Positions 2,360-36,847 of a stretch of DNA of 64,000 bases are shown here, piece after piece. How positions within the stretch are numbered: position 1 is the stretch's first letter; each line of letters starts with the position of its first letter. Position numbers and translations under genes: made by a program. The DNA is from Bacteroidota bacterium (GTDB taxonomy: Bacteria; Bacteroidota; Ignavibacteria; Ignavibacteriales; Ignavibacteriaceae), in NCBI GenBank assembly GCA_020161395.1, contig JAIUOE010000001.1, forward strand, positions 434,001 to 498,000, given 5' to 3'. Under the pieces are notes generated by a model. That model did no database searches and was not told the origin of the DNA. It saw only the letters and a program-made list of their open reading frames with translations.

Positions 2360-2366
2360 TTGTTTT

Positions 2367-2371
2367 CCTCC
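2367..2371 (-). promoter_or_regulatory. Ribosome-binding site deciding the start of the PGN_0703-like gene
   Basis: The minus strand reads GGAGG here, seven bases before the ATG at 2359. No comparable site precedes the longer in-frame start at 2377. Confidence 0.6.
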
Positions 2372-2450
2372 ATCCAATAATTTGGTTTAAGGATATTTCC
2401 AAGGGGTTTTACAGGACCTCAGACAGTAATAATTTGTTTTTACAATGACA

Positions 2451-3596
2451 TTAGTCAGTTACCAATTTAAAATTCGTAATTTCCTTTACTGTGTTCTGTC
2501 TCTTTCCGGGAGAAAGGACACCATCTACTTTGATGTAACCCGATTTTTTTCCATGAGCTTTGTACGCAATTTCATACTCATCCGCATTCAAAATAACTTT
2601 TGCATTTACTATTTCGGAGTCAACTAACAAAGCAAGCGTTACCTCTCCCTCCCGTCTGCCGTCTTTCCCCTCGTTTCCATTCAAACTCTCTACGGTTCCA
2701 ATAAATGTATCGGCCGAAGGAGTTTTTTCAGGATACAAGTGGCGTTTGAATTCGTCAATTTTTGCCTTGTACTCATAGTGGAATTTTACCGACGCAGGAA
2801 GAAAAGTTGATTGAATATTCTTCAATCTTTTATTAAAATTAGGGCTATACCTGAATCGCATTTCAAAAGGGATTTCCATTACTGAAGGGAAAAAACTGGA
2901 AAGAGCGTCACAAAGATTGTATGAAAGTTCAGGTGAGTTCGATTTTTGCTGTTTTTCCAGGAGTTCATCGAGTTTGTTGGATGCTATAGCATTTGTTAGT
3001 GAGTAGGATGTTGAGTTAATCAATTCAAAAACACTTCTTCCGAATGGCTTTGTTTCTTCTTCTCCAATACGATTTTCACTAGTGATTTCATCTGAACTCA
3101 AGGGATAGGAAATGTTAAGGATAAAACTGCCTTCCTCTGTATGGCGAAACCTCGCCTTTTTCAACAGTTCATTGGCTTCATTTCTATATAATCTTGGGTG
3201 AAATAATGCCGGATTGATTATTGAACTTCCTGCAGCCAATAGCATCTGCTTTGCTGCTTCGATTGAATCAACAGCATCTTGAAAAGAAATCGAATTTATT
3301 CGGTTGTCGTTGGAATAATATCTTAAACTGATCAGATCATCATTAAGGGTTCTGATCTCATTTATCACCCGGAATTGGGTTTTTTTGGTAAAACTGCACA
3401 ATTTGTCGAGTACCAATGTTGCCTGACTCACAAAATCAGAATTTTCATTGTCTGTCGGAAAGACCAACTGCTTATAGTCATTATCGGGACTATTTAACAC
3501 AAACAATCCGTCTTGAATTGCATCATCGATTAGTTTCCAACCAATTGATAATGCGTAATCTCTTATTTCAATTGGTTTTAAGTCCAGTTTTGCCAT
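2451..3596 (-). CDS. Conserved hypothetical protein, partner of DUF4365 gene
   Basis: About 381 residues with no signal peptide or membrane segment, so probably cytosolic. I do not recognise a named family. A TTG codon one position upstream is also open. The ATG at 3596 is preferred because GAGG lies eight bases before it, inside the end of the preceding gene. Visible points are a conserved-looking HTEEGSFILNISYPL stretch near the middle and a C-terminal part (about 290-381) rich in beta-strand-like sequence that could be an OB-like or SH3-like fold; the fold is a guess. It starts four bases after the stop of the DUF4365 gene, so the two are almost certainly co-translated and functionally coupled. 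Candidate second component of a two-gene defence or toxin module. Confidence 0.6.
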   Translation of the reverse strand: MAKLDLKPIEIRDYALSIGWKLIDDAIQDGLFVLNSPDNDYKQLVFPTDNENSDFVSQATLVLDKLCSFTKKTQFRVINEIRTLNDDLISLRYYSNDNRINSISFQDAVDSIEAAKQMLLAAGSSIINPALFHPRLYRNEANELLKKARFRHTEEGSFILNISYPLSSDEITSENRIGEEETKPFGRSVFELINSTSYSLTNAIASNKLDELLEKQQKSNSPELSYNLCDALSSFFPSVMEIPFEMRFRYSPNFNKRLKNIQSTFLPASVKFHYEYKAKIDEFKRHLYPEKTPSADTFIGTVESLNGNEGKDGRREGEVTLALLVDSEIVNAKVILNADEYEIAYKAHGKKSGYIKVDGVLSPGKRQNTVKEITNFKLVTD

Positions 3597-23136: not shown

Positions 23137-23166
23137 GAAGCAGGGCGGTGGTCTCCGTCCTGCTTC
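23137..23166. terminator. Hairpin between the small membrane gene and the deiminase gene
   Basis: GAAGCAGG at 23137-23144 pairs with CCTGCTTC at 23159-23166, with GCGG/CCGT extending the stem. Genes converge here. The T run is poor (AACTATTTT), so this is a probable rather than certain terminator. Confidence 0.55.
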
Positions 23167-23184: not shown

Positions 23185-25200
23185 CTATTTTGAGAGAATC
23201 ATTTTCTTAACAGAGGTGAAGCCCGTTCCGCCTCCTGTTTCCATGACATTCAATCTGTAGAAGTAAACCCCTGCCGGCATGTTTAATGCGTTGAACTCCA
23301 CCTTGTGAATCCCTTTTCCCGCCGGACCATCGTGAAGTTGCACCACTTTCTCACCGAGAGCGTTATAAACAGCGAGATTCGCTATTCCGTCCTCTTTCAT
23401 GCTGTAGAATATAACAGTCGATGGATTAAACGGATTGGGGTAGTTCTGATAAAGTGTGAAATCAAACAGCTCGACTGATACATCGCCTCCGTTGTAAATC
23501 TTAAATGAACCGTCGTGATCAATTTGTCGAAGACGGTAACTGAAGACCCCTGTACCGGGGTTTCTGTCCGTGAAGGAATATTCTGTTGTTGAAGTGGTGG
23601 TCCCTTTTCCGGGAACACTTCCCGCTGTTATCCAGTCGCTTCCTCCCTTTACGGTTCTCTCAACAACAAACTCTCTGTTATTCAGTTCCGAAGCTGTTGC
23701 CCATTTAAGGACTACGACACCGTTTTGTGTGAAGAGATCGAACGAAACGAGTTCCACAGGGAGTGAGCCGTCAGCGGTAAAATTGAAGTTGTTTGCAGGA
23801 GCGGTAACGGGTTTTGTACTAGTCCTGTTTGCAGTGACAGCCTCGATGTAGTAATAAATTTTTGTTCCTGTCGGAACTTCCGGAATATAACCCGCAACTG
23901 TGTCACCTGATACGGTCTGCATCGGTACCTGGCTCCAGGCCGCGGTTGTGTCTAGGGTGTAATAAAGCTTTTTGGAGACAAGGGGCAACTTGCTTTTCAT
24001 GTACGCTTTTATCTGATAACCGCTTCCCGGTTCAGCTTTTCTGAACGGAAGTCTGTCGTGAACGATGTGGATCTGATCAACAACTCCGATTTCCTTTGTA
24101 ATGCAATGAATGGCACCACTCGCAGGGATGATGGAATTGCAGTTAATCCCCACCACATTATAACCGGGGAGCGCCTCTCTGTATATCCTCAAGGCTGTGG
24201 AGTCGTAACGCAGGTCATAAGTTGGGACAATTACAGTTTTATTCACAAAAACGGAGTTTGTGAAAGTTCTGTAGTCGCCACCCTGGCTGGGATACTGGTT
24301 ACTGCCGTCCGGTGGCATGGGAATTCTGACAACCTTATAAGGTCTTCCGAAAGGTGTGAGGAAATTATTGAGAATATACTGGAGATTCAACTCGATCTGT
24401 GGACCATCGGAAATACCCTGAGGGTACTGCCCTACAAGAAGTGTCTCTTCGTCGAGCAGTTTCATGTGCATGTCTATATGATGAATACCGTCATAAGGGA
24501 GGACATCCATCTTTACATACCGGTTGATTCCCATGTAGTCAGCCATGATCGCATTGATTTGTGCATCGGTTTTGTTTGTGTTTTCATTTACAATAAGTTT
24601 TGATGAAAAAGCCGTCCCCAACCCGTCCGTCATAAAGTTACCGCCTGTTGCGACCAAACGATACGGTTCATTTATTGTCTGATACAAAGGCAAACCCGAC
24701 CATGTCGAAAAGACCTGAGAAATGACATCATCACTCGGTCTCGGGCGGTTATAGACCCAGTCAACCAGCACCAGTGAATCGACACCACCGCCATAGACCG
24801 CCCATGGACCATAATCCCTGATCCATATTGAGTTGAAAGCTGCCTGAATAAACTTAAGATTCCTGATTGGAACTCCGCCCGAAGTAAGATAAGTCTTCAC
24901 CGAGTTTGAATCGCTGCAGACAATAACAACGAGGCACTCCTCCTGGGCGTAATCAACTATCTGACGGAGAATCGACTGATAACTTGTCCAGGTGATCAAA
25001 ATCGAACTCAAGGTTTCCCACTCTGCCATCGTCCTTACGGGGAATGGCGGGGGTGTAGTAAAAGCCTCGGTTGATGAAGGAAAGCGATAATTTTTCATCA
25101 TCTCCTGTTCGGCAGGAGTCATCCCTTTTGGCAGGTCCTGCGAAACAACCTGAACTTGAAGGAGAAAAAAGGAGAGGAGCAGAATCTGTTTTAAATTCAT
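23185..25200 (-). CDS. Secreted peptidylarginine deiminase (PPAD-like) with T9SS sorting domain
   Basis: 671 residues. Signal peptide (about 1-20) precedes a PAD_porph-family deiminase domain (about 50-400) that turns arginine to citrulline and ammonia. Catalytic residues are all visible: Asp129 in WIRDYGPW, His241 and Asp243 in HHIDMH, Asn315 in FTNS and Cys366 in GAIHC. Arg152 and Arg154 in YNRPRPSDD match the two arginines that, in Porphyromonas gingivalis PPAD, grip the carboxylate of a C-terminal arginine. Agmatine deiminases lack that pair as far as I know. After an Ig-like linker region, a Fn3-like domain (LPVELVSFDLF, about 490-590) and the T9SS domain (QNYPNPFNPST, near 597) follow, ending KMILSK. 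It should be surface-exposed or released and citrullinate peptides. It ends by a hairpin shared with the convergent small gene. Confidence 0.85.
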   Translation of the reverse strand: MNLKQILLLSFFLLQVQVVSQDLPKGMTPAEQEMMKNYRFPSSTEAFTTPPPFPVRTMAEWETLSSILITWTSYQSILRQIVDYAQEECLVVIVCSDSNSVKTYLTSGGVPIRNLKFIQAAFNSIWIRDYGPWAVYGGGVDSLVLVDWVYNRPRPSDDVISQVFSTWSGLPLYQTINEPYRLVATGGNFMTDGLGTAFSSKLIVNENTNKTDAQINAIMADYMGINRYVKMDVLPYDGIHHIDMHMKLLDEETLLVGQYPQGISDGPQIELNLQYILNNFLTPFGRPYKVVRIPMPPDGSNQYPSQGGDYRTFTNSVFVNKTVIVPTYDLRYDSTALRIYREALPGYNVVGINCNSIIPASGAIHCITKEIGVVDQIHIVHDRLPFRKAEPGSGYQIKAYMKSKLPLVSKKLYYTLDTTAAWSQVPMQTVSGDTVAGYIPEVPTGTKIYYYIEAVTANRTSTKPVTAPANNFNFTADGSLPVELVSFDLFTQNGVVVLKWATASELNNREFVVERTVKGGSDWITAGSVPGKGTTTSTTEYSFTDRNPGTGVFSYRLRQIDHDGSFKIYNGGDVSVELFDFTLYQNYPNPFNPSTVIFYSMKEDGIANLAVYNALGEKVVQLHDGPAGKGIHKVEFNALNMPAGVYFYRLNVMETGGGTGFTSVKKMILSK

Positions 25201-25207
25201 ATTTCTA

Positions 25208-26389
25208 TCAGAAAGAAAGTTTTAGTATTGAGAAATCATCGGGCAGATTACTGTCGCGATTTAGCATTTTAATATGTGTGTAGAGCTTATCGAGTTCGGA
25301 ATTGTCGACTGACTGTTCCTTTCCGATCAGATCCCTCATCTCCTCGAGCGTCCACATTTTTCCCGGCGTCACTTCCACTTCATATACACCATCAGAAAAG
25401 ACATAGAATTTAGCACCTTCGGGAACATTCACCCGGGCAGATTTGTAGGGGAAATTAGGGAGATGCCCCACAATCAGATTCTTGGTTATAAGTTCTTTCA
25501 CCTCACCATCGGGAACAAACAGGAGGGCAGGGGGATGTCCCGCACTTCCATAAACGAGTTCACGGGTTGTCCTGTTGAACACACCGTACCAGATGGTAAA
25601 ATAGAGATTATTCTGTTTTTCCATCACAAATGTTTCGTTGAGTGTGTTGAGAACAGAAACGGGGTCTCTAAAATCGGTATTGGGAAGAGTCTGGCTTCTT
25701 AAAACATTCAGCGCGGAAACGGAGAGAAGTGCGGGTCCCACACCATGGTCGCAGACATCCAGAAGATATACGGCAAAATGATCATCATCAATCCAGTGAT
25801 ACCCAAAAGAGTCACCTCCGAGATCAGCCGAAGGGACAAATCTCCACTCCGAGAGGACGATCCCCTTTTTCAAAGGGTCGGGCAGGAGTGAAATCACATA
25901 TTCCGCCGCACGGTTAAGTTCGTTTGCAAGCGCCTCTTTGCTTTCAAGGAGAGCCTGATACATTTCATTTCTCTCCATCAGGGCGATATAACCTTTGGAG
26001 TGATACCTGATTCTTGCGATAAGCTCGATCTTGTCGGGAAGCTTCACGAGATAGTCATTTGCCCCCACTTCGAATGCATCGGCTTTTGTTACAGCCTCCT
26101 CTTTTGAAGAGAGAACAATCAGGGGAACATCCTTCAGCCTCGGATGCCCCCTGAAGAATTTTACAAGTGTGAGGCCGTCAATATCAGGCATCACAAGGTC
26201 CTGTAAAATAACCGTTGGTTCTATCTCTTCCGCTTTGGAGAGTGCAAGGGCAGGCTCCTGACAGAAGTGGAACTCAATATCCTTTTCGGTGGAAAGCATC
26301 ATTGAGACTGCACTACCGACTATTTGTTGATCATCAATCAGAAGGACTTTTATTTTATATTTTTTAAGTTCCTTGTTCTGCTGTATCAT
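25208..26389 (-). CDS. Response regulator with SpoIIE-type PP2C phosphatase output
   Basis: 393 residues. The receiver domain (about 13-130) has phospho-acceptor Asp64 (LQDLVMPDIDG), the acidic pair near residue 19-20 and a switch Ser in IVLSS. After a helical linker comes a SpoIIE/PP2C-type serine phosphatase domain (about 175-393). Metal-binding acidic residues are present: Asp189 and Asp193 in SADLGGD, Asp211 in DVCDHG, then SAGHPPALL, FSDGVYE and DDFSIL, so it should be active. Such proteins usually dephosphorylate anti-anti-sigma (STAS) proteins. It is the last gene of the chemosensory operon and shares one base with cheB. It occupies the place of WspR, so it is probably the pathway's output. 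No STAS or anti-sigma gene is in the window. Confidence 0.9.
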   Translation of the reverse strand: MIQQNKELKKYKIKVLLIDDQQIVGSAVSMMLSTEKDIEFHFCQEPALALSKAEEIEPTVILQDLVMPDIDGLTLVKFFRGHPRLKDVPLIVLSSKEEAVTKADAFEVGANDYLVKLPDKIELIARIRYHSKGYIALMERNEMYQALLESKEALANELNRAAEYVISLLPDPLKKGIVLSEWRFVPSADLGGDSFGYHWIDDDHFAVYLLDVCDHGVGPALLSVSALNVLRSQTLPNTDFRDPVSVLNTLNETFVMEKQNNLYFTIWYGVFNRTTRELVYGSAGHPPALLFVPDGEVKELITKNLIVGHLPNFPYKSARVNVPEGAKFYVFSDGVYEVEVTPGKMWTLEEMRDLIGKEQSVDNSELDKLYTHIKMLNRDSNLPDDFSILKLSF

Positions 26390-27405
26390 TATTTAAATTC
26401 CTTTCTTCCATAAAGAAGTGACAGTTCGAAAGCTATTTTAGCGGGATCAAGTATTTTTTTTGCTGCGTTAATGTCTGCCGCAGCTTTGGGCATTCCGTAA
26501 ACTATTGAGGACGCCTCATCCTGAGCGATGGTCAGCCATCCACTTTCCTTTAACTTGAGCAAACCTTCGGCACCATCCTTCCCCATTCCGGTCAGAAGAA
26601 CAGCGGTGTCTTTTGCTCCCCAGTTATCGCACAGTGAATGGTAAAAAGCATCCACCGAGGGGCGGTACGGATAATCTTTTGGTTCCGTAACATACGCAAA
26701 CTTGCCGTGATTGTCCAGAATCAGATGGTCATTCGTTCCGGCGAGCAACACCTTCCCCGGTTCGGGTGCCTCTCCATGAACGGCAATGTTTACACTCAAC
26801 TGAGTCTGCTTGTCCAGCCAGCTCGCAAGTTCCTCCGCAAACCGCTGGTCCACATGCTGAATAACAACGATGGCAGCGGAGAATTTTTCGGGAAGTGCAG
26901 AGAAAATGGTGGCAAGTGCTTTGGGACCCCCTGTGGAGGAACCAATGGCGACAAGAGGAAAGTCCATCTTTGCCGGTTTTGGCGGAATAACAGGCTTAAA
27001 GTAACTTTTCCCCTGGATCAGTCTTTTCAAAGAGTTTATTTTGTTGATCAGTTCCTGGGCACCAGTGGCGTTTCCCGAAAAATCGAAAACAGGTGTGGCA
27101 ACAGCATCGAGGGCACCGTGCCCCATTGCTTCAAAAACCTTCGATGAGTTTGCGCCAACCGATGCTGTAACCACAAGGATTGCGCACGGTGATTTTTTCA
27201 TAATTTCCGCGGTAGCCTGAACACCATCCATCTCGGGCATAATCAGATCCATCAGAATCAGATCAGGTCTGTCTTTTATTGCGAACTCAACCGCCTGTTT
27301 GCCGTTATAAGCAACCCAGGCAATTTCGAGGCCATCGATGGCTGAAACCACCCTCCTGAGCGCTTCGACAGCGAGGGAAAGATCATTAACAATTCCTATT
27401 CTCAT
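26389..27405 (-). CDS. cheB: Chemotaxis-type response regulator methylesterase CheB (WspF-like)
   Basis: 338 residues. The receiver domain (1-115) carries Asp53 in LMDLIMPEMDG. The methylesterase domain (about 148-335) has the catalytic triad Ser157 (GSSTGG), His184 (VIQHVD) and Asp277 (GMGKDGAEG). It removes methyl groups from chemoreceptor glutamates or deamidates glutamines, giving adaptation. Position after the CheA hybrid and before the output regulator matches WspF. It overlaps cheA by four bases (start inside the cheA stop) and the next gene by one base, so translation is coupled. Length and motifs are normal. Confidence 0.95.
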   Translation of the reverse strand: MRIGIVNDLSLAVEALRRVVSAIDGLEIAWVAYNGKQAVEFAIKDRPDLILMDLIMPEMDGVQATAEIMKKSPCAILVVTASVGANSSKVFEAMGHGALDAVATPVFDFSGNATGAQELINKINSLKRLIQGKSYFKPVIPPKPAKMDFPLVAIGSSTGGPKALATIFSALPEKFSAAIVVIQHVDQRFAEELASWLDKQTQLSVNIAVHGEAPEPGKVLLAGTNDHLILDNHGKFAYVTEPKDYPYRPSVDAFYHSLCDNWGAKDTAVLLTGMGKDGAEGLLKLKESGWLTIAQDEASSIVYGMPKAAADINAAKKILDPAKIAFELSLLYGRKEFK

Positions 27406-30101
27406 TTTGCCTCTCCGATCAGATCGATCACCGCATTAACAAGTGATTCGTCATGAAACGAACTTTTGGTAAGATAATAGTTTGCTCCGGCATTCAAACC
27501 CCGGAGACGGTCTTCTTCCCTGTCTTTATATGACACAATCATGACAGGTATGGTTTTAAATTTAGGATCAGATTTTATTTTTTCAACGAGTTGAATTCCA
27601 TTCATTCTTGGCATATCGACATCGGTGATCACGAGGTCGAAGTCTTCTCTTTGCAGCGAATTAAAGCCGTCGACTCCGTCAACAGCCGTTGTAACACTGT
27701 AACCGTTGTTTTCGAGAAGTTTTCGTTCCACTTCCCTGACCGTGAGAGAATCATCCACCACCAGTATTTTTCTGGTTTTACCTGATACCATAAAACTTGA
27801 GGTTACTTTGTCGAGCTTCGAACCGTGAATATATTTCTCGATGGAACGAACAAGATCGTCGGGATCTATTATCAGGGCAACAGATCCCTCCTCGAGAATT
27901 GCAGCAGCAGAAATATTTGGTATTTTGCCAAGTTTTCCATCCATGGCAGAGACAACGAGGTCTCTCTCTCCGAGGAAGGCATCGACAGCAACAGCATACT
28001 TTGCCGTTCTGTCACCAATAACAGCGAGATTGATAAAAGTCCCCTTTTCACTTTCGCCGGGGAGATTCATCAATCTTGCACAATTTACTATACCGAGGTT
28101 CTCATTATTCCATTTAATAAACTGTCTGTCTTCCACCGTCAGTATTTCCTCTTCCCTGATGCTGAGGAGTGTTTCAACCCTCGCGAGAGGGATGGCGTAA
28201 AGTTCCGAGTTAACCTTAAACAGCAGGGCTCTGATAACAGAGAGGGTAACGGGCAGTTGAAGTGTAAAGACACTCCCTTTTCCGGGTTCCGATTCGATCT
28301 TGGTTTTTCCACCTACCTGATGGATAAGGTTCATTACGATGTCGAGACCGACACCCCTTCCCGAAACCTTGGTCACTCCGGCTTTTGTGGAGAACCCTGG
28401 GAGAAACAGGAAGTCGAGGATCTCGGATTTACTGAGGCTTCCTGCCATTTCAGCGGTAACATACCCCTTCTCGACAATTTTTTTCCTCAACGATTCATCA
28501 TCTATTCCCTTGCCGTCATCCGATACGGAGATTGTGAGGAATCCTGCTCTGTGACCTGCTTCGAGGAGGATTTTGCCCGTCTCTTTCTTTCCGGCTTCGA
28601 TCCTCTCCTCGGGTGATTCGATTCCGTGGTCGGCGGCATTTGCAATCAGATGTGACAGAGGAGCCTCAATCTTATCCAGAATGTCCCTGTCGATCATCGT
28701 ATCCTCTCCAACTATTTCCAGCCGGATTTTTTTACCCGAATCTTTTGCAAGGTCCCTTACCATTCGTGGAATTCCGTGCAAGCCGTCGGCAATTGGTCTC
28801 ATTTTCGATTCAATCACCTGATTTCCGAGTGACTCGGAAAGCCTTTCGATGTTTCTTGAGAAGACATCAAACTTGTCGATCATGGTATTGATGTTCCACT
28901 CGAGTCTTTCGAGCACCTCCTGCGTACTGTCGAGTTCTGCCGCTACCTCCGGGAACACCCCAAGGTTTTCCATGGCTGCATTAAGTCCTTCCTGACTCCT
29001 CACCGCTTCCCTCAGAGTCTGCTTTGTTGCAAGCAGATACCCCTGAAAAGGTTTGGTAAACTTTGCCTGAATCTTTATTTCACCGGCGAGACCCAAAAGT
29101 CTGTTGAGGTTTTCTGCAAGAACCCTTACAAAGAGGGCGTCCTCCTTTTTCTCCTGACGCTGTGGCTGAGGAGATGGAAATGGAGGTGGAGCAGCCTGAG
29201 TTTGAACCGGCGATGGAGAATCAGATTGCTTATCCCCGCTTTCAGTTGTTGTTTTTGGTTTCTGCGCAGGTTGCGATGGTGCTGTTTCCCCTTTTGACGC
29301 TGCAGTTAGGGCAGAGGAGAGGGAGTTGATTTGATCGATATTATTGTCAATCTCCGAAAAAATCTCATCAACGGGGAGTGCTGCGATCATTTTAAATAAA
29401 TCGTTTCCCTTAAGGAGCAGATCAATATGGCTTCCCGTGAGTCTGATTTCCCCTTTGAGGGAGTGACTGAGCAGGTCTTCCATTGCATGGGCAAGTCCCA
29501 CCGCCTGATGGACGCCGACAATTCTGGCAGCTCCCTTGATCGAGTGGGCGGAACGCATAAGGGGTTCGAGTTTCTCATTTGAAGTTTCACCCTCGGCATC
29601 CACGAGTCCCTTTTCCAACACTTTGGTGTGCGATTCAAGTTCTATCTTAAAGAGATCGACGAGTACAGGATCATAATTGGGTTTTACTTCTTTTTTCTCT
29701 TTTTTCGGGGGTTCCTGTTGAACCGGTGCCAGGGGTTTGCTGAAATAACCGGCAAGATCCTGAATTACACTTCTCTTCTCTGAAAGAAATCCGGCAATAT
29801 CTGCGGGTTCTTTGTTCCCGAACTCTCTGAATATTTCACCTGCAGTTACGAAGAAATTCTCGTGGAGCTCTGAAAGATTTCCGCCTGACTCAATTAACTG
29901 GTTAAGAAACGATTCCATCGACTTGCATAATTCTGCGACCGGATCGATACCAACAACTTTCGCAGCCGACCGGATTGCCTGAACGGTGGAAGCTATCACC
30001 TTCAGATCATCTCCTGTACCGGAGGAAACAGCAGACTCAAACTTCGGAAGGTTGTCCGTGATTACGCTGCGAAATATCTCTAAAAGGGCACTGTTTTGCA
30101 T
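27402..30101 (-). CDS. cheA: Hybrid CheA histidine kinase with receiver domain (WspE-like)
   Basis: 899 residues. Domain order: a degenerate Hpt-like domain (about 1-115) in which the phospho-accepting His is replaced by Gln41 (QAIRSAAKVVG); a normal Hpt (about 145-265) with His186 in AHSIKGAARIVG; a Pro/Gln-rich linker (270-320); CheA dimerisation helices (about 325-430); ATPase with Asn488 (LIANAADHG), SDDGKGI (527-533) and GRGVGLD (581-587); a CheW-like domain (about 620-755); and a receiver (about 776-899) with Asp827 in ITDVDMP. No CheY-binding P2 domain is obvious. The fused receiver may act as a phosphate sink or intermediate, as in WspE and FrzE. It is preceded by the WspD-like CheW by two bases. 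Confidence 0.93.
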   Translation of the reverse strand: MQNSALLEIFRSVITDNLPKFESAVSSGTGDDLKVIASTVQAIRSAAKVVGIDPVAELCKSMESFLNQLIESGGNLSELHENFFVTAGEIFREFGNKEPADIAGFLSEKRSVIQDLAGYFSKPLAPVQQEPPKKEKKEVKPNYDPVLVDLFKIELESHTKVLEKGLVDAEGETSNEKLEPLMRSAHSIKGAARIVGVHQAVGLAHAMEDLLSHSLKGEIRLTGSHIDLLLKGNDLFKMIAALPVDEIFSEIDNNIDQINSLSSALTAASKGETAPSQPAQKPKTTTESGDKQSDSPSPVQTQAAPPPFPSPQPQRQEKKEDALFVRVLAENLNRLLGLAGEIKIQAKFTKPFQGYLLATKQTLREAVRSQEGLNAAMENLGVFPEVAAELDSTQEVLERLEWNINTMIDKFDVFSRNIERLSESLGNQVIESKMRPIADGLHGIPRMVRDLAKDSGKKIRLEIVGEDTMIDRDILDKIEAPLSHLIANAADHGIESPEERIEAGKKETGKILLEAGHRAGFLTISVSDDGKGIDDESLRKKIVEKGYVTAEMAGSLSKSEILDFLFLPGFSTKAGVTKVSGRGVGLDIVMNLIHQVGGKTKIESEPGKGSVFTLQLPVTLSVIRALLFKVNSELYAIPLARVETLLSIREEEILTVEDRQFIKWNNENLGIVNCARLMNLPGESEKGTFINLAVIGDRTAKYAVAVDAFLGERDLVVSAMDGKLGKIPNISAAAILEEGSVALIIDPDDLVRSIEKYIHGSKLDKVTSSFMVSGKTRKILVVDDSLTVREVERKLLENNGYSVTTAVDGVDGFNSLQREDFDLVITDVDMPRMNGIQLVEKIKSDPKFKTIPVMIVSYKDREEDRLRGLNAGANYYLTKSSFHDESLVNAVIDLIGEAK

Positions 30102-30103
30102 GC

Positions 30104-30775
30104 TTATTGAAATTTAATTGATGATCTGAACGATTCACAAATCTTATGCTCATCGAGCAGGGCTGCAGTAATCTCATCGAGTTCGAATATCCCTTTCGAG
30201 AATATTTCGCTCGATTTCTGAGCCGTTGAAGGAAGTTGCTTAATGGTTCCGGATATGATTCGCGATACACCAATCACTTCATCCACTTCGAACACAACTC
30301 TCTCACCCGCTCCTTTAACTGCGATCATTCTTTTATACACTGCCTTTTCTGTCTTAACCTCTTCCCCGGAACGGGAGATGCCGAGCAGAGTATCAAGATT
30401 GAAACAGAGCAACAATTCACCGTCTATATTAACCAGACCTCTGAAAGTACGGTTTGTTCTGAAAGGGACAAAATGTACAGGCTTCAACTCCACAGCTACA
30501 AGAAAGCTGTTTGTGTCAATGGCGAGAAACTCCGTTCCGAGTCTGAAAATTGTTACGGGGAGGTCGCCTCGCTCTTTGGTCTCTTTCTTTTTTGAGAGCG
30601 CCAGTGTCCATGAGTCAAGAAACTCGTGTGGAATCTCACGGTCGAAGAACTCCTTGGCGGAATTTGAATAAACCGGACAGTGTTTGCAGTGAAGGTATTC
30701 TGTGAGACTTTCACAAGATTTGTCTCCAAAAACACCGATTACCTTCCAGCATCTGTTCTCTTTTTTAATTTTCAT
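30104..30775 (-). CDS. CheW-domain adaptor with N-terminal cysteine motif (WspD-like)
   Basis: 223 residues. The N-terminal 45 residues contain four cysteines: Cys9 in CWKVIGVFGDKSC, Cys21, Cys30 and Cys33 in HCKHCPVYS. This motif is characteristic of WspD-type CheW proteins; its function is not established. It looks able to bind a metal, which is inference. A CheW domain follows (about 65-200, TIFRLGTEFLAIDTNSFLVAVEL, then RGLVNIDGELLLCFNLDTLLG). It links receptors to the CheA kinase. The gene shares four bases with the CheR gene upstream (ATGA-type overlap) and is two bases from cheA. Confidence 0.9.
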   Translation of the reverse strand: MKIKKENRCWKVIGVFGDKSCESLTEYLHCKHCPVYSNSAKEFFDREIPHEFLDSWTLALSKKKETKERGDLPVTIFRLGTEFLAIDTNSFLVAVELKPVHFVPFRTNRTFRGLVNIDGELLLCFNLDTLLGISRSGEEVKTEKAVYKRMIAVKGAGERVVFEVDEVIGVSRIISGTIKQLPSTAQKSSEIFSKGIFELDEITAALLDEHKICESFRSSIKFQ

Positions 30776-32037
30776 CTCGACCTCTCCTGAAGCCGTTTTA
30801 TTCTGTCTTTATAGATTGAAGCCTTATCCCTGTCCCCCTTTTTTTCGTAAAGGAGTGAAATATGTACGAGGGATTCAATATGATTTGGCTCGAGATACAA
30901 TACTTTCAAAAAGTTGTTTTCGGCTTCATCCATCAGTCCCGTGGCAAGATCAATCTCTCCCATCAGACAGATAAGATCTTTGTTTGTGGGATCATTAAAG
31001 AGAAGCTGTTCGCACTTTTTCCGGGCGGGTGTCAGTTCCCCCCTGTTGGCAAGTTCCTTGATGTAGTCAAGATCGAATTGCTCCTCCTTGACGACGATTT
31101 CAACACGGCTTGAAGTAAAAAGGGTTGACCTCTGCTGCCTTGGTGGAAGGAAAGGAGAAACCGGTTTTGCTGTTTTGGGCTGGAGACCTTCCCTTGTCTG
31201 CCGAAATTCTGATTTGGGCTTCTGCTGACCAGCCTCAAAAGGAGAAAGGGCGAACGATTTTGCCCGGGGGATTGCCCTGAAACCTGAAGAGGAAAAGAAC
31301 ATTACTTCAGTATGTCCCGCAAAAAGGATGCCGTCTGGCTTCAAAAGTCTCCTTATGTTCGCGACAGAAGTCTCCCTGCTTTTCCCGTCGAGGTAAATAA
31401 CCAGATTCCTGCAGAAGATTATATCATAACCCGATCTGTTTTTGAAGAATGACCCGGAAACAAGATTTTCATTATGAAATGTGACCATCGACCTGATTCT
31501 CCCCGCAATAATAAAAGCATCGTCTGACCTCACAAAATATTTTGCGATCATTGCCTCATCTTCACCCCGGAAAGATGATTTGCCATACACTCCTTTTTTT
31601 GCTTTTTCGATTGCATTCAGGCTGATATCAACCGCATCTATAATTAACAAGTCGGGAGGAAACCCAATATCAAGCAGAGCCATGGCGATTGAATAGGGTT
31701 CTTCACCTGTGGATGAAGGAACTGAAAGAATTTTTAAGGGACGGACCTGACCAGACATAAATTTGGATTGAACCTCTTCCTTAAGAAACACAAATGGCTC
31801 GATGTCCCTGAAAAACCAGGTTTCAGGAACCACGATCATTTCAACAAAAGCCTGTAACTCGCTGCTGCTGCTCCGGAGGAGGATGCCAAAAGCAGTGGTG
31901 TCGCTCAATTCAAGTTGTGACATTCTTCGTTTTACAGCAAGTTCAATGCTTTTAATACCTATTGTTGAATAGTCCAACCCTATTTTGTCGGCGAGCAGTT
32001 GCGTTATCTCCTGAAGACCCTGGTCAATACTAATCAC
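30772..32037 (-). CDS. cheR: Chemoreceptor methyltransferase CheR with C-terminal TPRs (WspC-like)
   Basis: 421 residues. The N-terminal helical CheR domain (1-60) is followed by the SAM-dependent methyltransferase domain. It has PETWFFRD (71-78), the SAM site ILSVPSSTGEEPYSIAM (103-119) and FCRNLVIYL near residue 210. A low-complexity linker (about 270-320, Lys/Gln/Pro) leads to two or three tetratricopeptide repeats (about 335-418). WspC and FrzF share this TPR extension. It methylates receptor glutamates with CheB as opponent. It overlaps cheW by eight bases and the next gene by four, so it sits tightly inside the operon. Confidence 0.94.
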   Translation of the reverse strand: MISIDQGLQEITQLLADKIGLDYSTIGIKSIELAVKRRMSQLELSDTTAFGILLRSSSSELQAFVEMIVVPETWFFRDIEPFVFLKEEVQSKFMSGQVRPLKILSVPSSTGEEPYSIAMALLDIGFPPDLLIIDAVDISLNAIEKAKKGVYGKSSFRGEDEAMIAKYFVRSDDAFIIAGRIRSMVTFHNENLVSGSFFKNRSGYDIIFCRNLVIYLDGKSRETSVANIRRLLKPDGILFAGHTEVMFFSSSGFRAIPRAKSFALSPFEAGQQKPKSEFRQTREGLQPKTAKPVSPFLPPRQQRSTLFTSSRVEIVVKEEQFDLDYIKELANRGELTPARKKCEQLLFNDPTNKDLICLMGEIDLATGLMDEAENNFLKVLYLEPNHIESLVHISLLYEKKGDRDKASIYKDRIKRLQERSR

Positions 32038-32488
32038 TTGTGAGCTCCGTAAACAGGTTCTTTTTCACATAAGCAGGGAGCAGGTCGTTAATGGAGACGA
32101 GCTGGACGATACCGGTTTTAAGATTGATCAGCTTGCCGAGGTAGCTTGCCTCCTCTGTGATGTAACCCGGTGATTGAAGTTCATCGGGCTTTATCCTGAT
32201 AATGTCCATTACCTTTTCACACAGAAGTCCAAGAAGATGAGACTCGCTTTCCACAAAATAATTTACGACTATTATTCGAGTGCTGAGAAGCCTTTTTGTT
32301 GAAAAACCCATGAGAAGGTCACGCAGGTCGATCACCGGAACGATGCTGCCGCGGTAGTTGAATCTTCCTGCAAAATATGCGGGTGCCTTTGGCATGGGAA
32401 AAAGGTTCACGGGCGGAATAATCTCCACCACTTCCTTTGCATCAACGGCATACCTGTTTTCACTTATCTCGAAAGTAAGGCAAAGCAC
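32030..32488 (-). CDS. cheW: CheW adaptor (WspB-like)
   Basis: 152 residues, one complete CheW domain: TFEISENRYAVDAKEVVEI at the start, then the conserved FNYRGSIVPVIDLRDLL (about 43-59) and VMDIIRI (about 93-99). It bridges chemoreceptors and the kinase. It lies four bases after the stop of the receptor gene and overlaps cheR by eight bases. A second CheW-type gene in the same operon fits the Wsp plan (WspB and WspD). Confidence 0.93.
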   Translation of the reverse strand: MLCLTFEISENRYAVDAKEVVEIIPPVNLFPMPKAPAYFAGRFNYRGSIVPVIDLRDLLMGFSTKRLLSTRIIVVNYFVESESHLLGLLCEKVMDIIRIKPDELQSPGYITEEASYLGKLINLKTGIVQLVSINDLLPAYVKKNLFTELTSD

Positions 32489-32491
32489 CTG

Positions 32492-34621
32492 TCAACTCCC
32501 GAACTTGAATTTTGAAACCACCTCACGCAGCGACCTGACAGCTCCGTCGAGTCTGGATGTGATTTCACTGAATTCCGAAATTGATTCCCGGGTGTGCACC
32601 GCCACCGCATTCAACTCGCTCATTGCATCGCTGATCTGGGCAGCGCCATCTGTCTGCATGTGCATTTGTGAACTGACCACTTCGAAACTCGGCAACACAT
32701 CCCTGGTATATTGAATAATCTCATTTATACTTTCGGCAATTCCGGAAATTCTGCCCGCACTTACCCTTGTGGTACCGGCGTAAGCCTCAACTCCCACGAC
32801 ACCTTCCTTAACCGCCTGTTGCATTTCGTGGATCATCTCCTCTATCTCCAGGGCTGCCATGGCGGTTTCCTCTGCCAGCCGTTTTATTTCGGCTGCGACG
32901 ATCGAGAATCCCGCTCCATACTCTCCCGCTTTCTCGGCTTCAATCGATGCGTTAAGAGAAAGAAGATTGGTCTGTGTGGCAATTTTTGTAATGGCTGTGA
33001 TAACATTTGAAATGTTGCCGGTCTTCTGATAGAGCATGGCAAGTTTTTCGGAGATATCTTTCGACCCCTCTTCGAGGGATGCCATCGAACCAGTAATCTC
33101 ATTTAAACCGGCGACACCTGTATCCGCGAGCATCAATGTTTTTCCCGATTTATCCGCCACTTCCTCAACTGTTTTGGAGAGGTGGATGGAACTGCTGTGT
33201 ATCTCTTTCCCGGTGGCATTCACTTCAGCGGTTGAAGCTGCCTGTTCATTTATGGCTGTGTTAAGCGCCTGAATCGATGAGGTTATCTGAGTCACTGAGG
33301 AAGTAACTGCGATGCCCGCTTTTCCGACTTCACCGAGCAGGATTTCAAGATCGAAGATGGTGCTTCTGACTGCACGGAAGAGGTTCCATATCTCATCCCT
33401 GTCTTTCGACTTTTCTTCACCCGAGATCAGGTAGGTGACTTCCATTTTGTGAATTTCTTCCTTCGCAGAGTTTATGTCTCCCTCTGCAAGGTTTTTGGTA
33501 ATCGCGGCAACACCGTACACCGGTTTGATTATTCCACGAGCTGTAAAGTAAATGAAAATCAAAGCGAGAACAAACGACGCTCCTGCTATAAACAACCTGA
33601 AAAGAATGCTTAAGTAGAAAGTATAAATACGGGTATCGATCACCTTTTCAAGTTCATCAAGGGTGGCTGCCCAAAAAAGGAGGCTTTCATCCAGTTGTTC
33701 AGAGGTAAGAAGGGTAAGATCCTCGACACCGTATAACTTGTTGTTCCTGATGATGTTTTCATAGATTTCTATCAGAGAGCCGATCCCTGTTTTATATTTC
33801 TCGACCATCGGGGGAAGAACCTGGGAAAGGGATCCCGATTTCCCGTGGAATTCCGGATCCTGTTCGATTGCACTGTTTACGGAACCGGGAATATCATCAA
33901 ATATAGCCGCCCTTAAGGTTCTGTTAAGATAGATAATCTCTGAAAGCCTGTCGAAACTGTAAACAGTGTCCTGCTCATCCTCGACTGCAAGATAAAACGA
34001 GTTGGAGAGCAGCTCCTGCACTTTCGGCATCCTTAAAACCGCCACATCCATCAGATAGTATGAGTCGCCTTCGGGGTCAAGAATAAGCTTTGACTTTATA
34101 GAGACCAGTTTCATCAGTTTGTAAAAGTCGTTTATCAGTTTGTCGTATTCCTGCTGGACCTGGGCAGTCTGTCCTGTTTTGCTGACGGTGAGGAGTTTCT
34201 CCCATTTTCCCTGCAGTGCCCTCGGTGAAAGGTCGTAGTCCTGTTTTTTTGAGAGCGTTTCCTGGTCAAGTTCTATATTCGCACCCTCTTTGTCCGCCGT
34301 TAAAATCAGTTTGTCAAACTCATCCTTTATTCTGGAATTAAGAGCTGCGATATGCGACTGAAAATCAGCTTTCGAGGAAGTGCCGGCGAATGTGAATGAT
34401 TTGTGTTCGAGGATGTGAACCTTCAATGCGCTAAGGGGGCGGATAAAACTGATGCCGCTTTTCTCCTTTTCTGCAAACTCGACACCCTGCCAAAGGGAAT
34501 TCAGATTTATTGCAAGAAGTATGGTCAAGGGAACTCCAAGCAGCAAACCGATAAAAACGAGTTTTTGCAACACCGTCAGGCGACGCAGAAGGATATTGAA
34601 AGTTAATTGAAGCTTTTCCAT
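32492..34621 (-). CDS. Methyl-accepting chemotaxis protein (chemoreceptor 2 of the operon)
   Basis: 709 residues. First membrane helix is about 17-37 (LVFIGLLLGVPLTILLAINL), a periplasmic helical domain about 40-335, second helix about 342-365, then HAMP-like sequence (RGIIKPVYGVAAITKNLAEGD). The signalling hairpin tip is [22 protein letters not shown] (about residues 560), slightly divergent from the usual NAAIEAARAGE form. The periplasmic part starts like receptors with a WQGVEFAEKEKSGISFIRPL opening; ligand is unknown. No C-terminal CheR-tethering pentapeptide is seen. It follows the other receptor gene with a three-base gap and is followed by cheW. Confidence 0.9.
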   Translation of the reverse strand: MEKLQLTFNILLRRLTVLQKLVFIGLLLGVPLTILLAINLNSLWQGVEFAEKEKSGISFIRPLSALKVHILEHKSFTFAGTSSKADFQSHIAALNSRIKDEFDKLILTADKEGANIELDQETLSKKQDYDLSPRALQGKWEKLLTVSKTGQTAQVQQEYDKLINDFYKLMKLVSIKSKLILDPEGDSYYLMDVAVLRMPKVQELLSNSFYLAVEDEQDTVYSFDRLSEIIYLNRTLRAAIFDDIPGSVNSAIEQDPEFHGKSGSLSQVLPPMVEKYKTGIGSLIEIYENIIRNNKLYGVEDLTLLTSEQLDESLLFWAATLDELEKVIDTRIYTFYLSILFRLFIAGASFVLALIFIYFTARGIIKPVYGVAAITKNLAEGDINSAKEEIHKMEVTYLISGEEKSKDRDEIWNLFRAVRSTIFDLEILLGEVGKAGIAVTSSVTQITSSIQALNTAINEQAASTAEVNATGKEIHSSSIHLSKTVEEVADKSGKTLMLADTGVAGLNEITGSMASLEEGSKDISEKLAMLYQKTGNISNVITAITKIATQTNLLSLNASIEAEKAGEYGAGFSIVAAEIKRLAEETAMAALEIEEMIHEMQQAVKEGVVGVEAYAGTTRVSAGRISGIAESINEIIQYTRDVLPSFEVVSSQMHMQTDGAAQISDAMSELNAVAVHTRESISEFSEITSRLDGAVRSLREVVSKFKFGS

Positions 34622-34624
34622 AAC

Positions 34625-36847
34625 TTAGCTTGTCTTAAATCGTTGTAATTCGTCATTGAGAGTGGAAACTGCGCTGTTCAACTGGCTTGTTGCCGATTTG
34701 AATTCCTGCAGCGACTCTCTCGTCTGTTCGGCTGCAACAGAGAGTTGCTGCATCGACTCGCTTATCTGCTCCGCACCCTCTGTCTGGCGTCTCATTCCGT
34801 AGTTAAATTCCTCGAAATGGGGAGCAAGTTCGTTCACATTGTTGATTACATCGTTAAGTCTCTCGGAGATGGATGAAACAGTAATGCTGTCTCTCCTCAC
34901 CTCTTCAGAGAATTTATCCATTTCCATTACACCGGAGGAAACTGACGACTGCATTTCCCTGACCATGTGTTCGATGTCGTGAGTTGCGATCGCTGTCTGG
35001 TCGGCAAGCCGGCTTATCTCTCTGGCAACCACAGAAAATCCTTTCCCGAACTCACCCGCTTTTTCCGCTTCTATGGCGGCATTTAGCGAGAGGAGGTTCG
35101 TCTGGTCGGATATTTTGTTGATTGTTGTTACGACAGAGGAGATTTTATTCGCTTTGGTGTTTATGATCGAAAGTTTGGCGGATATTGAACCCGTTGCATT
35201 AATCAACTGGTGGATAGCGGACTCGAGCGTCTGAAGATTGTTTCTTCCCTCAAGGGCAGTGGTGGCAGCGGTTGCGACACTGTTGCCAATGTTTTCCTCC
35301 AGCGTTTTTAAAAGACTGTTGGATGTCTGAAGTATCTCTTTTGCTGTGGCAGTGACTTCCTTTATTGATGCTGCCTGTTCAGCCACAGTGGCTTCCAGTT
35401 CCCTCGCTGATGCGGTAATCTGTGTAACTGACGAATTTACCTGAACTCCCGAAGAGCCTACCTGACTGAGAAGAGAGAAGAGGTTTTTAGCCATCTTCTT
35501 CACCGCAGCCACGAGTATCAGTGATTCATCGCTGTCTTCGATTTTGAACAGTTTTGCGAGGCTGAGAGATTTTTTATGTTGTGTTTCAAACTTCTCAAGG
35601 AAATCGTTCCCTGCTTTCAGGTCTCCAATCGCGATTTTCTCAACACTTCCAATCAGTTGAGTCACCGGTTCGGTTATCTTGTTGCTCAGATACCAGCCAA
35701 CAAGAAGTGTGAGAGTCAGGATTCCGAATGTCCATAACAAAATATTCAGAGTGAATCCCTTGGTTATGGCATCTATTCCCTCCTTGGCGGAGTAATATTC
35801 ATCCTCGTAGGTGGAGGCAACAATCACCCAGTCCCAGCTAAAGAAGTGAATTGCGACCGATATTTTCCTCCTTGGCGCGTTGCCACTTCCCGGTTCCGCC
35901 CACATATAAGAGTGGAAAACTGCATCTTCAGATTTAACAGCTTCATCAATCAATGTCTGTACATAATATTTTCCATCGACATCTTTGTTGTACCAGGCAC
36001 TTTCACCCTCTTTTTTACCATCCTGGGTAATCAGGTATTTCCCTTTTCGTTCACCCGTTGCGCCATAAACGGTAACTTTACCTGTCTCACCAACCTTAAC
36101 AGACTGGATGTTTTTTCTGAGCGAGGGAACTGCTTCTATCTGTTCTCCAACACTGAGAACCGCTATAATCTGTTTGTTGTCATCAAAGACGGGTTCGTAT
36201 GAAGCGATGTACCAGGAGCTTCCAACGAGTGAGATTCCCTTGTAGCTCTGACCTTTCAGAATTGCTTCCACCACTTCGTTTTTTGTACCGTCAGGTTTTA
36301 CGGCAGGGATAAATGTTCCGAGTGATCTTTGCTGCGAGTTGGTTGAAACATTGGTTGCCACTCTGATCAGGTCACCTTCGTTGTTCATTCTCTGAAAAAC
36401 GCTTGAAACCACACCCATTGAGTTGTGAATTTCGTCGACAATCGGAACCGGTGTGGAGAACGAAGTGACCTGTCCGAGCCACTTCCCGCCGAGCATCAGT
36501 TTTGGGATGGTAACTTTGATGCTTTTTTTGGTATATTGATCAATAGCTATCCATTCAACCTTGTCACCGCTTAACTTTAGTCCGCCATCGGCTTCAAGTA
36601 TCTGCCATGCAATTTTCTGGGCACGATCAACCTTTTCCTGGATGAGATCGTTGGAAGTGCTGCAGAGTGAGTACATATCCCAGACTATCTGCTTGAGCGC
36701 CTCTCTCCCGAGAGTATCAAGTTCGGCTTCCGTTCTCTCACTTATATTTCCTTTTATGCGGAAAACTGCGATTTGAGTGACAACAAGCGGTAAAAGTGCG
36801 GCGAACAGCACGAGTGCTATTACTTTACGCCTAAGAGTAAGCTTCAC
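34625..36847 (-). CDS. Methyl-accepting chemotaxis protein with Cache sensor domain
   Basis: 740 residues. Membrane helix 1 is about 9-30. A large extracytoplasmic sensor of Cache_3/Cache_2 fusion type (about 35-360) contains [23 protein letters not shown] and [19 protein letters not shown]. Helix 2 is about 372-392, then HAMP ([21 protein letters not shown]). The signalling domain has tip [20 protein letters not shown] near residue 600. Cache domains bind small metabolites directly; the ligand cannot be read. It is the first gene of the operon, with a possible TATATTTG promoter box about 100 bases upstream. Both receptors share the EAEKAGE tip, consistent with one dedicated array. Confidence 0.92.

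Follow-up and report, generated by a model that had tools for sequence, protein, structure and literature searches.

The window analysed here, a 64,000-nucleotide stretch covering positions 434,001-498,000 of contig JAIUOE010000001.1 (GCA_020161395.1) from the 4.07 Mb genome of a Bacteroidota bacterium of the Ignavibacteriaceae, carries a chemosensory operon of the Wsp family in which the output enzyme has been exchanged, with a WspR-type receiver fused to a SpoIIE-type phosphatase. The system is probably a phospho-receiver-driven phosphatase that acts on a STAS partner switch. The gene content and order, the orthology to WspR, the place of the exchange, the catalytic residues, the last position in several phyla and the predicted helix are the parts of this reading that can be taken from the sequence itself. 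The eight genes run on the minus strand from 36847 down to 25208, with domains assigned by Pfam and NCBIfam, as follows:

34625-36847, minus strand: chemoreceptor 1, Cache_3-Cache_2 sensor and MCP signalling domain (Pfam)
32492-34621, minus strand: chemoreceptor 2, MCP signalling domain, with no further Pfam match at E 0.001 (Pfam)
32030-32488, minus strand: CheW, WspB position (Pfam)
30772-32037, minus strand: CheR methyltransferase with a TPR stretch, WspC position (Pfam)
30104-30775, minus strand: CheW with an N-terminal four-cysteine motif, WspD position (Pfam and motif comparison)
27402-30101, minus strand: CheA-receiver hybrid kinase, WspE position (Pfam and alignment)
26389-27405, minus strand: CheB receiver-methylesterase, WspF position (Pfam, NCBIfam)
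25208-26389, minus strand: output regulator, WspR-type receiver fused to a SpoIIE-type phosphatase (Pfam, structure-database matches and trees)
25925-26353, minus strand: regulator residues 13-155, receiver of the WspR type with the beginning of the helical stalk
25211-25924, minus strand: regulator residues 156-393, stalk end and SpoIIE-type PP2C phosphatase domain

All eight genes and domains named in a first-pass annotation of the window were recovered, and its assignment of order and content to WspA-B-C-D-E-F is borne out by the gene order, the domains and the four-cysteine CheW. The tight packing through overlaps of 1-8 bases that it described applies to four of the seven junctions (8, 4, 4 and 1 bases), while the remaining three have gaps of 3, 3 and 2 bases. 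Pfam and NCBIfam agree with the earlier gene calls, NCBIfam having no match for the Cys-type CheW. The SpoIIE domain of the regulator matches PF07228 at 120.8 bits (cut-off 25), and the TPR stretch of CheR matches TPR_8 at 24 bits, under the cut-off of 25.7. According to Pfam, the CheA hybrid consists of two Hpt stretches, a HATPase, a CheW domain and a C-terminal receiver; the first Hpt has Gln41 in place of the histidine, and the second retains His186. The histidine of the first Hpt is also lost in another genome of the same genus (G184) and retained in three more distant relatives (L065-L067), and the second Hpt of L067 has Asn.

The order receptor, CheW, CheR/TPR, Cys-type CheW, CheA/receiver, CheB and regulator is that of Wsp, and the gene set is, on sequence comparison, a member of the Wsp family with a different output enzyme, because the same order ending in receiver-GGDEF occurs in Mesorhizobium ciceri pMc1192 (L229, annotated) and in Cupriavidus metallidurans (L226). 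The latter locus is unannotated, its CheW was not called and "wsp" is there a reading from matches, with 220.7 bits for CheR, 72.8 for WspD, 623.2 for CheA, 360.4 for CheB and 171.9 for the regulator against the window proteins. The receiver-GGDEF protein with cyclic-di-GMP output that marks Wsp in the strict sense was not found in the window genome. Additionally, the N-terminus of the WspD-like protein carries C-x11-C-x8-C-x2-C, presumably a mark of WspD, and the pattern fits 78 of 81 WspD-like relatives, a set that was itself fetched by motif; the other three also have four cysteines, with the same spacing in L086 and longer spacing in L116 and L132. This N-terminus resembles a metal site.

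Within the phylum, the full-length Cys-type CheW was found in 5 of 296 genomes, with weak matches to the CheW domain alone in 25 more, and the Wsp-type receiver was found in the same five, with at most 13 candidates scored per genome. In all five (the window genome and four others), CheB followed by the receiver-phosphatase closes the cluster; for two of them (L065 and L066), the sequence retrieved contains no CheR gene. Identity to the three more distant of these relatives is 54-57% for the regulator, 40-41% for CheA and 32-35% for the Cys-type CheW. In a kinase tree made by a quick method, the five rows nearest the window CheA all come from phosphatase-type clusters, and this CheA groups with phosphatase-type kinases of its own class and of the Syntrophaceae phylum, with support from the Shimodaira-Hasegawa approximate likelihood ratio test of 94% at the step that adds L067, 94% at the step of eleven rows and 18% between them. 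The sparse presence in the phylum, together with this grouping of CheA, suggests that the operon spread horizontally.

Residues 13-155 of the regulator have their best structure matches in WspR (3bre, 178.8 bits; 3i5a, 167.8 bits), and other matches of the regulator are RssB at 95.4 bits over the whole length and PleD receivers at 60.6 bits. In Cupriavidus campinensis, a receiver encoded on the same replicon and strand as the WspD match shares 58.5% identity with residues 10-151. In a receiver tree of 148 columns and 118 rows, the 109 rows of Wsp-type receivers, two of which (the window one and L064) are identical, stand apart from nine other receivers of the window genome with support of 88/93; the split recurs in 92% of 200 bootstrap trees without being starred, and the branches of the nine outgroup receivers are long. 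Judged from these alignments, the receiver and stalk are orthologous to WspR, and the domain exchange took place inside WspR. When the SpoIIE types are compared with the GGDEF types, identity drops from 0.50 at residues 136-145 to 0.36 at 146-155 and to 0.09 at 156-165, a segment in which the SpoIIE types still share 0.43 among themselves. The exchange point is placed near residue 155, inside one unbroken helix predicted for residues 120-167, because identity collapses there and because a receiver-less phosphatase of Rhizobium jaguaris (L227) aligns from residue 164 in BLAST at 47% (by eye, from a few residues earlier). The structure model that gives this helix was built as a monomer from 44 sequences and has a predicted local distance difference test score (pLDDT) of 91.7. 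The coiled-coil stalk of WspR is described as residues 140-171 (PMC2270323), which would correspond to about residues 134-165 of the window regulator if chain and residue numbers agree.

The same receiver is joined to several enzymes. Among the 109 rows, the output is SpoIIE in 47, a histidine kinase in 34, GGDEF in 13, an adenylate cyclase in 11 and a weaker cyclase in 2, and 2 are cut before the output; Pfam confirmed examples of every type, including both weak cyclases. The locus sample is uneven: a single scan supplied 80 of its 239 loci, the ones most like the window WspD. Of 108 distinct receivers, counted over all output types, 96 have CheB immediately upstream; for SpoIIE the figure is 39 of 46. 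A CheB-regulator fusion was considered for long frames such as L182 and rejected, neither the CheB profile nor Pfam finding CheB there. One Wsp cluster (L250, 10925-13551) has tandem outputs on Wsp-type receivers, an adenylate/guanylate cyclase followed by a SpoIIE phosphatase, and in L144 a second Wsp-type receiver, joined to a cyclase (2042-3280), is encoded roughly 10 kb away from the receiver-GGDEF gene that belongs to a Wsp cluster.

Stalk length, taken as the distance between the KLPD motif and the first motif of the output, is 55 in 40 of 48 SpoIIE types and 48 in the other 8, several of which are close kin, so that independent events are fewer than rows. GGDEF stalks (13 of 13 measured) are 52 residues long in 11 and 38 and 59 in the others, and cyclase stalks (11 of 13 measured) are 55 in ten and 62 in one. 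Kinase stalks were measured in 34 of 36 rows (L209 was a mis-hit, L203 was not found, and L091 and L169 come from one genome) and sorted by eye into two kinds, one with lengths of 68 (16 rows) and 61 (1), the other with 69 (13), 55 (3) and 70 (1). Within each kind, departures are multiples of seven, or one heptad, with the sole exception of L122 (70 against 69). Such heptad steps fit a coiled coil whose register must stay.

The predicted phosphatase has a SpoIIE-type fold with intact catalytic residues. Taken here to be the metal ligands of the SpoIIE family, D193, D211 and D333 are conserved in 48 of 48 relatives and D384 and D385 in 47 of 48 (one gap), and the receiver residues D19, D20, D64, S94 and K116 are likewise conserved in all 48. 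Of the three aspartates on which the first-pass annotation had based an active-looking phosphatase, Asp193 and Asp211 hold, whereas Asp189, although present, is not catalytic, being Asp in only 7 of 48 relatives. The best fold match of the model is RssB of Pseudomonas aeruginosa, followed by other PP2C phosphatases such as SiaA and SpoIIE.

In the proposed mechanism, the receptors would signal through CheW and the WspD-like couplers to the CheA hybrid, which would phosphorylate CheB, for adaptation, and Asp64 of the output regulator. Phosphorylated WspR-type receivers would then dimerise, the helix 120-167 behind them would pair as a coiled coil, and the coiled coil would set the switch helices of the phosphatase, leading to metal binding and an active enzyme. 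The switch-helix step is carried over by analogy from RsbU, in which ordering of the linker dimerises and activates the phosphatase via switch helices (PMC12143880). That phosphorylation is the trigger is suggested by the receiver, and its effect would presumably be activation rather than inhibition. The phosphatase would dephosphorylate an anti-anti-sigma-type STAS protein and so free the client of an RsbW-like kinase; any sigma factor in the pathway would be hypothetical.

As for the target, the genome has 12 SpoIIE, 9 STAS and 3 strong RsbW-type matches. By profiles from eight of the nine STAS and the three strong RsbW matches, which may miss distant ones, 7 of 45 phosphatase types have a STAS or RsbW gene no farther than 5 kb away, against 0 of 50 regulators of other types (Fisher p 0.004, kinship among loci uncorrected). 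In L231, the regulator, STAS and RsbW are directly adjacent; in L232, STAS and RsbW are adjacent and convergent with the regulator; in L233-L235, the regulator and RsbW are adjacent. Beside intact Wsp clusters, such genes occur in L246 and L066, and in L239 at 8 kb. Pfam confirms STAS/RsbW-type genes in L231, L233, L235 and L246, as well as in L239 at 8 kb. The L066 neighbourhood also encodes, beside its STAS and RsbW genes, a 493-residue protein (494-1973) that combines an RsbW-like ATPase with an acetyltransferase-like domain. In the window genome itself, a STAS-STAS-RsbW module lies on contig C4 (402689-403710), where none of the 12 SpoIIE matches is found, and of nine neighbouring RsbW proteins, including one from R. 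jaguaris that stands beside a phosphatase lacking a Wsp receiver, eight are nearest to the C4 RsbW. The C4 module is a candidate target in this genome, and only that.

Several observations weigh against a phosphatase that acts on a STAS partner switch within this operon. No STAS or RsbW gene lies beside the window operon among the located profile matches of this genome, 38 of the 45 phosphatase-type neighbourhoods are without one within 5 kb (the sequence of some loci stops short of that distance), and 12 SpoIIE and 9 STAS matches leave the wiring ambiguous. L233-L235 are close relatives, and because L231-L235 show no chemosensory genes in the stretch examined, L066 and L246 are the only intact clusters that have such a module at 5 kb or less; the receiver-phosphatases of L231-L235 were apparently recruited out of the cluster. 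The neighbouring RsbW proteins favour the C4 RsbW by a modest margin, and that of L235 favours the C5 copy. The structure model has a single chain. RssB of P. aeruginosa, whose fold is nearest, works as an adaptor too, so that catalysis is not certain to be the output. Kinase and output are imperfectly co-inherited as well: the four output types require at least nine changes on the kinase tree and the SpoIIE label eight (at least six forced by starred branches), with 12 rows of unknown output counted as non-SpoIIE, loci from L231 on typed SpoIIE by default except L261 and L262, and L250 given two outputs.

The partner switch of the first-pass annotation thus fares unevenly. A conserved receiver-SpoIIE output is present, while its target is deduced from the 7 of 45 relatives, with no STAS or RsbW gene beside the operon here and no sigma factor tied to it; the predicted co-occurrence with STAS and anti-sigma genes is, in the same way, seen within 5 kb of those seven relatives and not beside the window operon. 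An unlikely alternative, to which the empty neighbourhoods here and in the 38 relatives lend weight, is that the same Wsp operon and phosphatase act on another Ser/Thr phosphoprotein, for example the target of a Hanks-type kinase, rather than on STAS. The domain, however, is of the SpoIIE/RsbU/RssB type, a family whose known substrates are STAS proteins; the association with STAS or RsbW (7/45 versus 0/50 controls) also argues for a STAS substrate, and so does the receiver-less R. jaguaris relative, which is likewise beside RsbW and STAS.

Further down in probability, and distinctly improbable, is a phosphatase domain whose chief role is that of a protein-binding adaptor, comparable to the role of RssB towards sigma S, catalysis being of lesser weight. 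The nearest fold is that of P. aeruginosa RssB, for which both an adaptor role and catalytic activity of the phosphatase domain are described (PMC12143880), and the metal ligands are nevertheless retained in 47-48 of 48 relatives. Very improbable, too, is an ordinary chemotaxis or pilus system in which the receiver-phosphatase is a phosphate sink: CheA has its own receiver and a second chemosensory cluster exists on contig C19, but the WspD and WspR orthology and the conserved catalytic residues of the supposed sink speak against it. That second cluster (L083) has genes for a receptor, a CheA-receiver, CheB and a histidine kinase fused to a receiver of non-Wsp type.

Two findings had been named at the outset as fatal to an exchanged output, a co-conserved receiver-GGDEF gene elsewhere in the genome and a phosphatase that is a recent unrelated insertion, and both were looked for, with outcomes in favour of the first-pass reading. 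The sole GGDEF match of the genome (L039, 106-1986), on another contig and hence outside the window, as the first-pass annotation had it, is a 626-residue protein with neither a GG[DE]EF motif nor a receiver match, and no EAL match occurs in the genome. A GGDEF/EAL cyclic-di-GMP circuit is unlikely in this genome because of these two results, HD-GYP lying outside the search. One Wsp-type receiver was found in the window genome (13 of 53 candidates scored) and one in G184 (all 48 scored).

As regards the phosphatase, 48 of 49 Wsp-linked domains, from five phyla, form one clade (97/97) in comparison with 10 of the genome's 11 other SpoIIE proteins. The sister of this clade is a non-Wsp receiver-phosphatase of the window genome (L081, 395 residues). 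The cyanobacterial L154 (8763-10208) falls outside; in it a Wsp-type receiver was joined independently, a second time, to another lineage of SpoIIE phosphatases. From these comparisons, the phosphatase is not a recent insertion, because the clade extends across several phyla and the last position after CheB is conserved. That the phosphatase gene is a chance or recent neighbour and the true Wsp output lies elsewhere is hardly credible, for although the genome has further receiver-SpoIIE genes, this one has a WspR-type receiver, the conserved place after CheB and a clade spanning several phyla, and the genome offers no other Wsp-type receiver among the 13 of 53 candidates scored, a GGDEF match without the motif and no EAL match.

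The spread of the receiver was measured in evenly drawn genomes with a profile at E 1e-45 (1e-40 in the own phylum), with at most 13-16 candidates scored per genome, so that the counts are lower bounds. Wsp-type receivers occur in at least 12 of 246 genomes in the phylum of Singulisphaera acidiphila, at least 14 of 240 in that of a Lentisphaeria record, at least 7 of 247 in that of an Acidobacteria record and at least 15 of 247 in that of a Syntrophaceae record. Over five phyla, the outputs of 55 matched receivers are SpoIIE in 42, GGDEF in 7, a kinase in 5 and a cyclase in 1; without the five seed genomes, each chosen for having SpoIIE, the SpoIIE share is 37 of 50. The receiver tree requires at least 12 output changes, with six for SpoIIE alone (at least two forced).

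A possible ninth gene follows the operon, with these coordinates:

23185-25200, minus strand: possible ninth gene, PAD_porph deiminase (peptidylarginine deiminase-type) with a C-terminal secretion tail (below its cut-off)

The transcript may hold nine genes, since the deiminase gene starts 7 bases beyond the phosphatase stop and has the same place in G184; it is absent beside the clusters of L065-L067. Just past it, a 12-pair inverted repeat (23137-23166) was called terminator-like on the plus strand only.

Taken together, these results make it somewhat more probable than its converse that Wsp is a plug-in platform, in which one chassis and one receiver-stalk are joined to at least four enzyme classes (phosphatase, diguanylate cyclase, histidine kinase and adenylate cyclase) through stalks that vary by heptad steps, once in tandem (L250), with a STAS-wired phosphatase form the commonest in the five phyla sampled and the cyclic-di-GMP link one lineage's version. 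Natural sets matched in receiver, stalk and kind of kinase, with four outputs, offer a lesson in how one sensor drives different outputs, and an exchange point within a few residues of one helix makes signal register, length and direction directly testable. Caution is also advised, as a Wsp operon or an automatic "WspR" label is not evidence of cyclic-di-GMP in the phyla of Planctomycetes, Verrucomicrobia, Acidobacteria, Syntrophaceae and Ignavibacteria. WspR has been reported in Planctomycetes genomes (PMC6461901), and such labels may cover phosphatases.

Compared with Wsp (WspA-B-C-D-E-F-R), the window operon has the same order, the CheR-TPR, the four-Cys CheW, the CheA-receiver hybrid, CheB and the receiver and stalk of WspR, and differs in its SpoIIE-type phosphatase in place of GGDEF, its two receptors (one with Cache_3-Cache_2) and its two Hpt stretches, the first without His; multiple Hpt and a C-terminal receiver are described as common in CheA of the ACF class (PMC10782961). 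Parts of the picture are already known from the sources consulted, namely receiver-phosphatases in such clusters (PMC3447774), a replaced Wsp output (PMC8552884) and a chemosensory partner switch (PMC9855816, PMC7184735). In the open-licence literature searched, neither a WspR receiver fused to a SpoIIE phosphatase was found, nor the orthology of receiver and stalk across outputs, a mapped exchange point, the heptad steps or the spread of the phosphatase form. A survey of cheR-TPR/ACF clusters from 2012 lists receiver fusions to a protein phosphatase, a histidine kinase, a mononucleotidyl cyclase and GGDEF (PMC3447774), and its passages on the ACF class do not cover WspR orthology of the receiver and stalk, the exchange point or the phylum spread of outputs. 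The Wsp H-system of Burkholderia, described in a survey of Beta- and Gammaproteobacteria, has likewise replaced the Wsp output, WspR being absent and the receiver protein WspH, not a phosphatase, standing in its place (PMC8552884).

Chemosensory operons tied to an anti-sigma partner switch are represented by Shewanella Che1 with CrsR/CrsA (PMC9855816), and F7 clusters of stage 1 with a serine phosphatase have been described (PMC7184735); these differ from the window in being of the F7 class, with CheD and CheY, rather than Wsp, and CrsR carries an anti-sigma factor domain. RssB of P. aeruginosa (3f7a, 3eq2) shares the receiver-helix-phosphatase layout and the phosphatase fold, whereas the window receiver is far nearer to that of WspR, at 178.8 bits over the receiver by itself as against 95.4 bits for RssB over the whole protein, and sits in a Wsp operon. 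Finally, linker helices have been proposed to make regulatory domains interchangeable between phosphatases, kinases and GGDEF enzymes (PMC12143880); as described there, the proposal rests on other proteins, whereas here one receiver-stalk and one operon context bear all these outputs.

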